Origin: Candidatus Solirubrobacter pratensis
Lineage (GTDB): Bacteria; Actinomycetota; Thermoleophilia; Solirubrobacterales; Solirubrobacteraceae
Direction: 5' to 3'
Assembly: GCF_000425945.1 (NCBI RefSeq)
Contig: NZ_AUEK01000003.1
Coordinates: 310,001 to 374,000, forward strand
DNA: 64,000 nucleotides
Shown here: positions 30,973 through 34,211 of the stretch, piece by piece
How positions within the stretch are numbered: position 1 is the first letter of the stretch
Layout: the number at the start of each line of letters is the position of its first letter
The notes under the pieces: model-generated
Seen by the model: only the letters and a program-made list of their open reading frames with translations
What the model was told of the DNA's origin: nothing
The model's database searches: none
Position numbers and translations under genes: made by a program

Positions 30973-31606
30973 CCGCCGCGGCGCTCTGGCCGCGGCGCCG
31001 GCGGTAGCGCAGGTACAGCCACACGGCGCCGGCCACGATCAGCACGACGACCGCGTAGTCGACGTAGTGCAGGTTGTCCTTCCAGGTCTCCCAGCGGTCG
31101 CCGGCCTGCTGGCCGACGAACGCCAGCAGGAACACCCACGGCACGCAGCCCGCGACGGTCAGCAGCGTGAAGCGCCAGAACGGCATCTTCGCGACGCCCG
31201 CCGGCAGCGAGATGAACGTCCGGATGACCGGCAGCATGCGCGAGAAGAACACCGTCGCGTCGCCGTAGCGGTCGAACCAGCGGTCGGCCCACGCCAGGTG
31301 GTGCGGCTTGATGCCGACCTTGCGGCCGTGCTTCTCGAGCAGGTCGATGCGGCCGAAGTAGCCGACGGCGTACGCGATCCAGGAGCCGGCGACGTTCGCG
31401 GCCACGCCGACGGCGGTCGCCGCGAACAGCGAGTACTCGCCGTTGGCGACGTTGAAGCCGGCGAACAGCATCGTCGCCTCGGACGGGATCGGCAGGCACG
31501 CGCTCTCGCCCACCATCAAGAGGAAGACGCCGGGAAGCCCGAGCTTGTCGATCACGTCGACGGCGAACTGGACCAGAGGATCCGTGATGGAGGCCTGGAG
31601 CAGCAA
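30953..31606 (-). CDS. DedA family membrane protein
   Basis: About 217 residues, with motifs of the DedA/SNARE-associated family: GVFLLMVGESACLPIPSEATMLFAGF, AGSWIAYAVGYFGR, the DRYGDATVFFSRMLPVIRTFISLPAGVAKM signature, and four to five membrane helices. DedA proteins are thought to flip undecaprenyl phosphate or other phospholipids, which fits its coupling to a UppP-like gene. I suggest TTG 31606, because the GTG at 31630 lies inside the outer stem of the structured element at 31620; the GTG start would add 8 residues and cannot be excluded. Confidence 0.85.
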   Translation of the reverse strand: MLLQASITDPLVQFAVDVIDKLGLPGVFLLMVGESACLPIPSEATMLFAGFNVANGEYSLFAATAVGVAANVAGSWIAYAVGYFGRIDLLEKHGRKVGIKPHHLAWADRWFDRYGDATVFFSRMLPVIRTFISLPAGVAKMPFWRFTLLTVAGCVPWVFLLAFVGQQAGDRWETWKDNLHYVDYAVVVLIVAGAVWLYLRYRRRRGQSAAADATTGA

Positions 31607-31619
31607 GCGGTGACCAGGG

Positions 31620-31702
31620 TAACGTCGCACGCAGGTGGAAGGCCCGCCGGTGCCCGGCGATGCGGCCGGCGCCCGCGACGGCCGACACCGGAGGGCGAAA
31701 CC
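31620..31702. repeat. Structured intergenic element, copy A
   Basis: On the + strand TAACG, then outer arm TCGCAC (31625-31630) facing GGGCGA (31693-31698) with one mismatch, inner stem GGTG (31634-31637) with CACC (31686-31689), the conserved GGA, and the end AACC. The 48-base insert is GC-rich and can fold further. Read on the minus strand it lies in the leader of the DedA gene. Confidence 0.55.
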
Positions 31703-31705
31703 GAT

Positions 31706-32188
31706 CTACGCCGGTGCGGGGGGTTCGATCCTGGGCAGCGTCAGCGACGAGATGCGCTGCTTGGTCCGCTGCGGCGGGCGACGGATGTCGGTCTTCGGCC
31801 GCAGCATCTTCAAGATCATCACGGCCTGGTCGACGTTGGCGGCGACCGCGGGGCGGTGCGCGACGTCGTAGGCGGCGAGCCGCTGTGCGACCGGCGCGGC
31901 GGCGCCCGCGACGATCAGCTCGCCCTTGCGGGCGCGCAGCGCGGCGGCGGCGTGGACCAGCGAGCCGAGCACGCCGTCCGAGACCTCGGTCGCCTCGGCG
32001 AGGTCGAGGATCAGCCAGCGCACCCCGCCGCCGAGGGCGGCGTCGACGCGCCGCCCGAGCTCCGCGGACGCGCCGTCGCCGAGCGTCCCGCTGACGTCGA
32101 TCTGGTGCACGACGTCGTCGAGCCGGTGCTCACGGAAGGCCACCGTGCCGGGCTTGACGACGGCGCGCAGGGATTGCGAGGTGAACAT
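31706..32188 (-). CDS. STAS-domain protein (anti-anti-sigma type)
   Basis: A 160-residue protein. Residues about 25-120 form a STAS fold: VVHQIDVSGTLGDGASAEL, then WLILDLAEATEVSDGVLGSLVHAAAALRARKGELIVAG. The Ser in EVSDGVLGSL lies where SpoIIAA-like antagonists are phosphorylated. Such proteins bind anti-sigma kinases or act in stress signalling. The C-terminal 40 residues are basic and unusual. ATG 32188 follows a 13-bp hairpin and, further up, a copy of the structured element, so its expression may be controlled in the leader. Confidence 0.82.
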   Translation of the reverse strand: MFTSQSLRAVVKPGTVAFREHRLDDVVHQIDVSGTLGDGASAELGRRVDAALGGGVRWLILDLAEATEVSDGVLGSLVHAAAALRARKGELIVAGAAAPVAQRLAAYDVAHRPAVAANVDQAVMILKMLRPKTDIRRPPQRTKQRISSLTLPRIEPPAPA

Positions 32189-32200
32189 GGCTCAGACGGA

Positions 32201-32231
32201 CCTCACGGCAGCGTATTTCGCTGCCGTGAGG
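32201..32231 (-). promoter_or_regulatory. 13-bp perfect hairpin in the STAS gene leader
   Basis: CCTCACGGCAGCG (32201-32213) pairs perfectly with CGCTGCCGTGAGG (32219-32231) around a 5-base AT loop. On the minus strand it ends 12 bases before ATG 32188 and lies between that start and structured element B. Possible roles are translational control, an operator for a dimeric protein, or an attenuator. Confidence 0.6.
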
Positions 32232-32246
32232 CCAGTCAACCCCACG

Positions 32247-32291
32247 TATCGTCGCCCGACGTCCGAACTTGAGAGGACGGAGGGCGAAACC
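32247..32291. repeat. Structured intergenic element, copy B
   Basis: Outer stem TCGCCC (32252-32257) with GGGCGA (32282-32287); inner stem GTCC (32261-32264) with GGAC (32275-32278); 10-base loop; GGA on the 3' side of the internal loop; AACC at the end. This is the compact form, almost identical to copy C. On the minus strand it lies about 60 bases before the STAS gene. Confidence 0.65.
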
Positions 32292-32310
32292 GGTGTCCGT
32301 CTTCCGGCGG

Positions 32311-33126
32311 CTACGCCCCGATCAGAGAGCCGGTGAACGCCTTCGTGCCGGTCGCGAGCGTCACGTCCGGCCCGCCGTGGGACTTCATGTACGCGAGCAT
32401 CCGCGACAGGTCGCTCACGCCGTTGGCCGCCGGCAGCGGCGCGATCTGCAGCGTCGAGAGCACGCCGAAGGCCTTCCCGGTCGCGTCCATGAACCCGGAG
32501 CCGGAGTCGCCGGGGATGCCGGGCGTGACCGTGTAGACCTGGTGCGTCCAGCCGTTGCCCGCCGTCCCGAGGCTCTTGCCGCGCTTGGGCGACAGCTGCG
32601 TGATGCCCAGGCGCAGCGACGAGTTGCCGTAGGAGTAGACGTCGTCGCCGGCCGCCGTCGAGTCGGCGATGCCGGTCGGGCCGCCGAGCGTCGGGACCGA
32701 CGGGTTGACGCTCGCGTAGTCGGCGGGGTCGAGCTTGATCAGCGAGATGTCGTTGTACGCGCACGCGTCGGCGTTCGTCTCCCCGGCGGCCTGCATCGCG
32801 GCCCACGACGAGTAGGCGAGCGTGCCGGGCTTGGACGCGCCGTCGACGGTGACCGGCGTGCCGAGCGGCAGGCTCGGCGTCGTGCAGCCGTCGGTGTCGG
32901 TGTTGGAGCCGGTCCCGGCACAGTGCGCCGCCTGCCCGAGGTAGATCGCGTTGGAGCCGTCGTAGAAGACGAAGTTCGATGTGCATTGCGCGCCGTCGGT
33001 CACGGTCTGGACGCCTGGATGGACGGCGGCGCTTGCGGCGGGAGCCCACGTGGGGGCGGCGGAGGCCGACGCGGCGAGCACGAGCGATGCCGACGCGACG
33101 GCGAGAGCGGACAATGTCTTGTGCAT
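32311..33126 (-). CDS. Secreted trypsin-like serine protease
   Basis: A 271-residue protein with a clear signal peptide (cut near ASA at about residue 23). The chymotrypsin-fold catalytic triad can be assigned as His68 (QAAHC), Asp126 (YNDISLIKLD) and Ser208 (PGIPGDSGSGF). Four Cys residues (48, 69, 81, 122) could form two disulfides. It is therefore an extracellular S1-type peptidase of unknown target. The start ATG 33126 lies 8 bases after the end of structured element C on this strand. Confidence 0.85.
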   Translation of the reverse strand: MHKTLSALAVASASLVLAASASAAPTWAPAASAAVHPGVQTVTDGAQCTSNFVFYDGSNAIYLGQAAHCAGTGSNTDTDGCTTPSLPLGTPVTVDGASKPGTLAYSSWAAMQAAGETNADACAYNDISLIKLDPADYASVNPSVPTLGGPTGIADSTAAGDDVYSYGNSSLRLGITQLSPKRGKSLGTAGNGWTHQVYTVTPGIPGDSGSGFMDATGKAFGVLSTLQIAPLPAANGVSDLSRMLAYMKSHGGPDVTLATGTKAFTGSLIGA

Positions 33127-33134
33127 GTCCGCTG

Positions 33135-33179
33135 TAACGTCGCCCGGGGTCCGAACTTGTGGGGACGGAGGGCGAAACC
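33135..33179. repeat. Structured intergenic element, copy C
   Basis: TAACG, outer stem TCGCCC (33140-33145) with GGGCGA (33170-33175), 3-base bulge, inner stem GTCC (33149-33152) with GGAC (33163-33166), loop of 10, GGA, AACC. It lies between the divergent protease (start 33126) and DUF354 gene (start 33225); on the minus strand it ends 8 bases from the protease start codon. Confidence 0.65.
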
Positions 33180-33224
33180 GCTTTCTCTCGCGACGAACTT
33201 GCGGCTATCGTGCCGCGGCCACTG

Positions 33225-34211
33225 ATGCGCGTCTGGGTCGACCTCACGAACTCGCCGCACGTGCTCGTGATGCGCCCGGTGATCGAGACGCTGCGCCGGC
33301 GCGGGGCCGAGGTGCACGTGACGGCGCGCGACTTCGCGCAGACGCTCGGCCTGCTCGAGCGCTTCCGGATCGACCACACGGCGATCGGCCGCCACCGCGG
33401 CGGGAACGTCGCCGCCAAGGCGCTCGGCCTCGGCCGGCGCTCCGGCGCGCTGGTGCGCTGGGCGCGCGGGCGCGGCTTCGATCTCGCGCTCGGCCACGGC
33501 TCCAACGACGTCTCCGTCGCCGCCGCGCTGCTGGGCATCCCGTCGGCGACGTCGTTCGACTACGAGTTCGCCAAGGTCCAGCACGCGATCAACTGCCGGC
33601 TCGCGCGCCGGATCGTGGTGCCGGAGGCGATCCCGGCGCAGCGGCTCGCGCGGTACGGGGCGACGCCGGCCAAGCTGCAGCGCTACGCGGGGCTCAAGGA
33701 GGAGTACTACCTGGCCGACTTCGAGCCCGACCCCGCGGTGCTCGGCGAGCTCGGCCTCGACCCCGCCGAGCCGCTCGCCGTCGTTCGCACGCCGCCGGCG
33801 GTCAGCCTCTACCACCGCTTCGAGGCGCCGCTCTTCGGCCAGGTGCTCGACCGCCTGCGCGGACACCAGGTCGTCGTGCTCCCGCGCGTCGAGTCCCAGC
33901 GCGCCGAGCTCGGCGGCTTCATCGTCCCGGAGCGTGCCGTCGACGCCCAGTCGCTGATCGCGTTCGCCGACCTCGTGATCTCCGCGGGCGGCACGATGAA
34001 CCGCGAGGCCGTCGCGCTCGGGACGCCGGTGTGGACGACGTTCGAGGGCCGCCTGGGCGCGGTCGACGAGCGGCTGATCGCCGAAAGGCGGCTGCGCCGG
34101 CTCGAGCGCGCCGAGGACGTCGTGCTCGAGAAGCGCTCCGCCGCGGGCGTCGCCGCGCGCGTCCGCCGCGACCCCGAAGCCTTCACCGACCTGTTCGTGA
34201 AGGACGGTTAG
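33225..34211 (+). CDS. DUF354 family protein, glycosyltransferase-like
   Basis: A 328-residue protein of the DUF354 family, which has a GT-B-like fold: MRVWVDLTNSPHVLVMRPVIETLRRRGAEVHVTAR at the N-terminus, LGHGSNDVSVAAALLGIPSATSFDYEFA, and a C-terminal FADLVISAGGTMNREAVALGTPVWTTF motif like the UDP-binding part of MurG/WecB enzymes. Archaeal and bacterial members lie in polysaccharide loci, as here, directly before a sugar dehydratase gene. ATG 33225 is chosen because the family begins at this MRVW motif; earlier in-frame codons run into element C. Confidence 0.83.
   Translation: MRVWVDLTNSPHVLVMRPVIETLRRRGAEVHVTARDFAQTLGLLERFRIDHTAIGRHRGGNVAAKALGLGRRSGALVRWARGRGFDLALGHGSNDVSVAAALLGIPSATSFDYEFAKVQHAINCRLARRIVVPEAIPAQRLARYGATPAKLQRYAGLKEEYYLADFEPDPAVLGELGLDPAEPLAVVRTPPAVSLYHRFEAPLFGQVLDRLRGHQVVVLPRVESQRAELGGFIVPERAVDAQSLIAFADLVISAGGTMNREAVALGTPVWTTFEGRLGAVDERLIAERRLRRLERAEDVVLEKRSAAGVAARVRRDPEAFTDLFVKDG

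Follow-up and report, generated by a model that had tools for sequence, protein, structure and literature searches.

A recurrent hairpin in four gaps of the window

The window, which is the whole 64,000-nucleotide stretch of the Candidatus Solirubrobacter pratensis genome that was analysed, contains four copies (A to D) of a short palindromic element, all on the + strand and all at the places where a sequence-only reading had located them. Copy D, a long form (3521–3604), begins directly behind the TAG stop codon of flgE (3518–3520), in agreement with its description as a copy that follows flgE. Its outer arms, TCGTCC and GGACGA (3526–3531 and 3595–3600), enclose a GGA/GGA loop, the inner arms GGTCG and CGACC, and a variable terminal stem, with TAACG at the 5′ end and AACC at the 3′ end. 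The T-rich stretch CGTTCTCC (3605–3612) lies 3′ of its AAACC, and most copies have a similar stretch.

Copy A, also a long form (31620–31702), occupies the gap between a STAS-domain gene and a DedA-like gene, both on the − strand; its outer arms are TCGCAC and GGGCGA, with one A.G mismatch, and its inner arms are GGTG and CACC. Copies B and C are short forms with the outer arms TCGCCC/GGGCGA and the inner arms GTCC/GGAC. The former (32247–32291), which starts with TATCG, lies between a protease-like gene and the STAS-domain gene, both on the − strand, and the latter (33135–33179), which starts with TAACG, is found in the divergent gap between the protease-like gene (−) and a gene starting at 33225 (+). 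A perfect 13-bp inverted repeat with a 5-base loop (CCTCACGGCAGCG / CGCTGCCGTGAGG, 32201–32231), seen by eye, sits between the start of the STAS gene and copy B.

The outer arms of all four copies, including the single A.G mismatch, are as the sequence-only reading gave them. What it described as a 3-base bulge is a symmetric GNA/GNA internal loop. When folded as single sequences, two of the four window copies are far stabler than their shuffles (z of −4.6 and −4.1), and the remaining two have a z of only about −1.6. Throughout, genes were called by a codon-usage script trained on the window instead of being taken from an annotation, and gene names (flgE, clpP, priA, rplL, atpG, hemB, lon, etc.) were assigned by eye from translations, some of them being those of the sequence-only reading.

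Copy number, anatomy and covariation

The 6.64-Mb genome has the pattern GGAGGRCGAAACC at 16 places (13 on the + and 3 on the − strand) and the reversed control pattern at 2, and the whole element is present at 14 of the 16. A covariance model, R1, built from these 14 whole-element copies, matches the genome 40 times at E ≤ 1. With the limit at E < 1e-3, 34 matches are left, and four of these are extra units of tandem arrays. With the five places added by a second model, R2, built from 22 short-form copies, the genome holds at least 39 model matches, the four tandem-array units included. The covariance-model search that had been proposed as a check has thus found many further copies, not few, and the element is recurrent, as had been claimed.

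Outside this genome, the element is patchily distributed. In the R1 search of 61 relatives, the own genome has at least 33 matches, G011 at least 23 and G033 at least 13, and the others listed have 6 or fewer; 24 of the 61 genomes have something at E ≤ 0.1, several of these matches being weak. Under strict filters, matches at E ≤ 1e-4 occur in at least 12 of the 299 genomes of the class, all belonging to the own family. A gapped short-form pattern gave 30 matches in 84,980 species genomes, all traceable to Solirubrobacterales: 27 are from Solirubrobacteraceae, Candidatus Siliceabacter or Svornostia (the last placed by NCBI in Baekduiaceae, order Solirubrobacterales), one is from Solirubrobacterales, and two are from Actinomycetota bacterium SZAS-16, which is assigned to the own family. 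The same pattern had no match in viral contigs, and carriage by phages was rejected on this ground. As the sequence-only reading had proposed, the element fits no known riboswitch: the whole window has no Rfam match at gathering thresholds, and positions 31500–33300 have none at E ≤ 1.

The consensus runs, from 5′ to 3′, through GTRACG, an outer 6-bp stem that starts with TCG/CGA, the GNA/GNA internal loop and an inner stem of 4–8 bp, which is closed either by a CTTG loop or by a long variable stem; the 3′ side ends with AAACC, followed by the T-rich stretch. In the short form the core is mostly 45–48 nt long, and in the long form, with its variable terminal stem, about 73–87 nt. Pairs were also counted without an alignment in those 55 of 115 copies (the set described in the next section) whose core is exactly 47 nt. 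In both GNA triplets, the outer G and A are conserved in 54–55 of these 55, and the middle base can be any of the four letters. At the two innermost positions, G.A plus A.G are found in 28 of 55, and the rest are mostly Watson-Crick pairs. In 28 of 55 copies, a mismatch (A.G, T.C or G.A) stands at one outer pair, and G.T pairs fill 15 of the 770 cells.

In several copies, the inner unit is tandemly repeated behind one 5′ end. Such tandem partial units, seen behind the copies of L030 (1501–1914), L023/L046, L047, L049 and L073, lack the 5′ TRACGTCGCC and start at CGNAGG directly 3′ of the T-rich stretch.

Covariation of the stems was examined at several levels. In the alignment of the 14 copies, both partners vary in 6 of 11 pairs, the observed score is reached by none of 500 shuffles, and sliding the stem partners lowers it. 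Two-sided changes are found in 7 of 14 pairs among the 22 short-form copies and in 8 of 11 pairs among 52 distinct copies, where 46 two-sided cells compare with 8.3 after shuffling; three of the alignments used, that of the 52 copies included, were fitted to the models. The picture changes for copies that share a locus within a genus: six copy pairs have 12 base pairs lost or gained and not one two-sided change. These six come from ten within-genus pairs seen, and three of them share one locus. L053/L129, which has one two-sided change, was set aside, since only one flank matches and the junction differs, and L251/L258, L135/L267 and L048/L054 were left out because their cores have other lengths. 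Between genera, same-locus pairs have 1–5 two-sided changes, and repeated insertion is possible there.

The argument that paired changes reflect selection on structure therefore stands in part: the stems do covary among copies, but the same-locus pairs show pairs lost or gained and no compensation. Because compensatory change is absent from the six same-locus pairs, a small sample, it is apparently the spreading family as a whole, and not each locus, that maintains the structure. This shows that stem covariation among copies in one genome need not mean a regulatory RNA.

Gene ends, stop codons and empty sites

The genomic context was counted for 115 full copies from 18 genomes, 30 of them from the own genome, after 15 of the 130 model matches in the fetched loci had been dropped as partial, tandem or irregular. 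The left gene is on the + strand, pointing into the element, in 85 of the 115 copies and on the − strand in 29. In 40 copies, the left gene has the TRA or TAG of the element as its stop codon (20 TGA, 16 TAA and 4 TAG), and in another 26 the element starts 0–10 nt behind the stop codon, so that 66 of the 115 copies either supply the stop codon or have it at most 10 nt upstream. The element provides an in-frame stop 40 times and is read through 8 times (P about 1e-12 if a third were expected), and departures from the trinucleotide, TAT (3) and CAA (1), occur only where it is not used as a stop. The flanking gene pairs are co-directional in 53 (++) and 16 (−−) copies, convergent in 30, divergent in 11 and undefined in 5. 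The bias toward gene ends is weaker in the own genome alone, where the left gene is + in 15 of 30 copies and the stop is supplied in 8 of 30.

Within the class of 26 copies at 0–10 nt, the distances 2, 5 and 8 are absent; modulo 3, the remainder is 1 in 18 copies, 0 in 8 and never 2, some of these copies being orthologous. Some copies lie in reading frames. Two genera carry the element within lon, in antisense orientation and in frame (L259, which is G000:C6:47139-47203 on the − strand, and L057, 1505–1551 on the + strand). It adds about 20 residues just before the Walker A motif there, and more in L057, where a second partial unit is present. At L274 (G251:C26:150304-150368, −), translation of the upstream gene continues into the element in a different frame, so that the element encodes a C-terminal tail, SVTSPEGLRSR, which is absent in the genus mates.

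Most orthologous gene ends in relatives are empty. The element behind flgE is absent, as the model confirms, in 15 of 15 relatives examined, of which G001 and G006 are not independent because their flgE flanks look identical. For nine other copies of the own genome, 44 of 45 gene ends in five genus mates have no element, as checked with the model; the exception is clpP of G003 (L227), which has a full copy in the orientation opposite to that in the own genome (G000). Eight copies of G251 gave 16 of 16 model-checked gene ends without the element in two genus mates, and the overall count is 75 empty sites of 76. Sister species could also have lost copies instead of never having had them.

The gap between atpG and atpD, in contrast, is a hot spot for the element. 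The gene is present in 54 of 61 genomes, and 10 of 30 fetched loci (L311–L340) are occupied, with differing stems; in a single genus, G224 is empty and its mates G027 and G251 carry the element. Some sites have thus been occupied repeatedly, once, at clpP, in opposite orientations. In the occupied atpG–atpD loci, the C-terminus of AtpG is as long as in most empty relatives, and the TRA of the element stands at the native AtpG stop position in 6 of 10, in G134 by means of a degenerate first unit. At clpP, L029, L036 and L273, however, the protein stops at the element and is shorter by between a few and about ten residues. Because the stop is native at some loci and the protein is shortened at others, the TRA may be either the target or a part of the element.

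The empty genomes G224, G000 and G002 have GGAG directly 3′ of the atpG stop codon, which implies that in occupied ones everything from CGTCG/CATCG through the T-rich tail must be inserted. At L021, in contrast to atpG–atpD, the T-rich tail stretch looks like native flank. A MITE derived from a DDE transposon would have terminal inverted repeats and a target-site duplication; by eye, pairs of empty and occupied sites show no consistent duplication, though the relatives compared are diverged. The exact ends of the element, the right end included, are uncertain, as the insertion junctions are seen between species only.

These observations do not support the proposal of a regulator in gene leaders. 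The element is anchored to gene ends and not to gene starts, its neighbours are unrelated, and the same sites are empty in relatives; copies scattered without regard to gene starts are what the sequence-only reading itself had associated with a mobile palindromic repeat. The impression of leaders arose because the copies at 31620–33179 have the minority arrangement, with the left gene on the − strand. The unrelated genes, the empty orthologous sites and the lack of any Rfam match likewise speak against a riboswitch or leader RNA.

A broader alternative is a cis-acting RNA (intercistronic, 3′-UTR or leader) that is selected for its effects on neighbouring genes, such as ribosome stalling near the stop codon. 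The covarying stems, the RNA-typical CTTG loop with some G.T pairs, the many copies that supply or closely follow a stop codon and the occupation of atpG–atpD in several genera are all compatible with it, and ribosome stalling is reported for REPs that lie no more than 15 nt from a stop codon (PMC12306157, citing its ref. 17). This explanation is nevertheless quite unlikely given the unrelated neighbouring genes, the 75 empty sites, the two orientations at clpP, the antisense in-frame copies inside lon, the six within-genus pairs without a compensatory change and the absence of Rfam matches.

Proposed mode of spread and comparison with known repeats

The element is a real structured repeat that gathers at stop codons, and not a leader RNA. 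It is probably a dispersed, non-autonomous, REP-like palindrome of one Solirubrobacterales group, which belongs to the soil actinobacteria. Of the options named by the sequence-only reading, a REP-like palindromic repeat is the one favoured by the many copies, the placement at 3′ ends and the patchy presence between close relatives.

Such an element would spread in the form of a single-stranded DNA hairpin that a trans-acting enzyme recognises, presumably by its stems, its GNA/GNA loop and its unpaired flanks, GTRACG and AAACC. The hairpin would join next to a TRA trinucleotide, often a stop codon, and the upstream gene would hardly be harmed, because the TRA of the element would then serve as its stop or lie just behind it. 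The inserted copy may be transcribed as a hairpin abutting the stop codon and then decay slowly; effects on the neighbours, such as 3′-end stabilisation or ribosome stalling, would be secondary.

Concerning the enzyme, a more specific proposal is possible though rather doubtful, namely that the hairpin family owes its movement to a so far unrecognised recombinase or nuclease of single-stranded DNA, distinct from Y1 and IntI, which recognises the GNA/GNA-loop hairpin and inserts it directly 3′ of TRA, with stop codons as natural landing sites. An unlikely explanation is that the element is a classical REP whose Y1 transposase (RAYT/TnpAREP) has meanwhile disappeared from most carriers or has diverged beyond recognition. 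The kind of place, the use of stop codons, the stem with a mismatch zone and the TAG that ends the 5′ tag in 5 of 115 copies would suit it, and Y1 genes are present in two of the 14 carriers (G014 and G032). In the other 12 of 14, which include the own genome and the one-contig genome G036, no Y1 (REP/IS200) transposase was detected at E ≤ 0.01, while all six genus mates have 1–3 Y1 genes each and few detected copies or none (these being lower bounds, with at least two copies in G003). In a survey, the Y1 enzymes of Actinobacteridae are reported to belong to the IS200 subclass alone (PMC6006769). The tag, moreover, is GTRA and not GTAG. A reverse transcriptase was rejected as mobiliser, RVT_1 being absent from 7 of 14 carriers.

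Integron attC sites are folded hairpins with two stems, an unpaired spacer and a variable terminal structure. The element has this geometry, and at 31620–33179 single genes are flanked by three copies, as they would be if it were an attC-like site that is recombined as a folded single strand with two boxes. This identity is very improbable: no integron integrase exceeded the cut-off in any of 28 genomes, no core sites or cassettes were seen, the right end of the aligned elements lacks a GTT core, and most copies are single and stand beside resident genes. The weak integrase matches, which occur in all 28 genomes and in all 14 control genomes, are presumably ordinary tyrosine recombinases. BOX is a modular repeat with variable, tandem inner units, and the element resembles it in having its inner unit in tandem behind a single 5′ end, but the sequence and the hosts are unrelated.

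The closest parallels are with REPs, which are described as lying in convergent and co-directional gaps, in most cases under 20 bp away from 3′ ends; their GTAG ends often provide TAG stop codons, and intragenic copies occur (Di Nocera et al., 2013; PMC3733652). The element likewise is a short, imperfect palindrome with many dispersed copies, mostly in convergent or co-directional gaps near 3′ ends, and shares with the GTAG and CGTC superfamilies, as they are described there, a tag at one end, intragenic copies and alternative complementary stems, and with the GTAG REPs the stop codon at the tag end. Unlike in those superfamilies, its tag is GTRACG, an internal GNA/GNA loop interrupts the stem, a long form with a variable terminal stem exists, and tandem partial units take the place of head-to-head dimers. 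It is not a GTAG-tagged REP in the strict sense, since GTRA is the rule instead of an unpaired GTAG end and most carriers have no associated RAYT (Y1) transposase. The CGTC class, which has no transposase gene attached, is defined by an unpaired CGTC followed by an 8–9 bp stem that starts with complementary A/T bases (PMC3733652); in the element CGTC is present, but its TC is paired inside the stem and the next bases are G and C. With the E. coli REP, whose stem mismatch is needed by TnpAREP (PMC8266576), it has in common a hairpin with a conserved mismatch zone and an unpaired tetranucleotide at the 5′ foot, but the mismatch is a symmetric GNA/GNA loop instead of AA-GC, and the carriers mostly have no Y1 transposase.

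No earlier report of the element in the Solirubrobacterales group was found in a literature search that lay mostly outside subscription journals, and a term search of the REP article returned no mention of Actinobacteria (PMC3733652). REPs are widespread small repeats, and the spread of the transposase-less CGTC class has no accepted explanation. A REP-like family in Thermoleophilia, with mostly Y1-less carriers, empty sites and a sharp preference for stop codons, makes the search for the missing mobiliser tractable. The element shares the behaviour of REPs, but not the exact tags and stems of those known.
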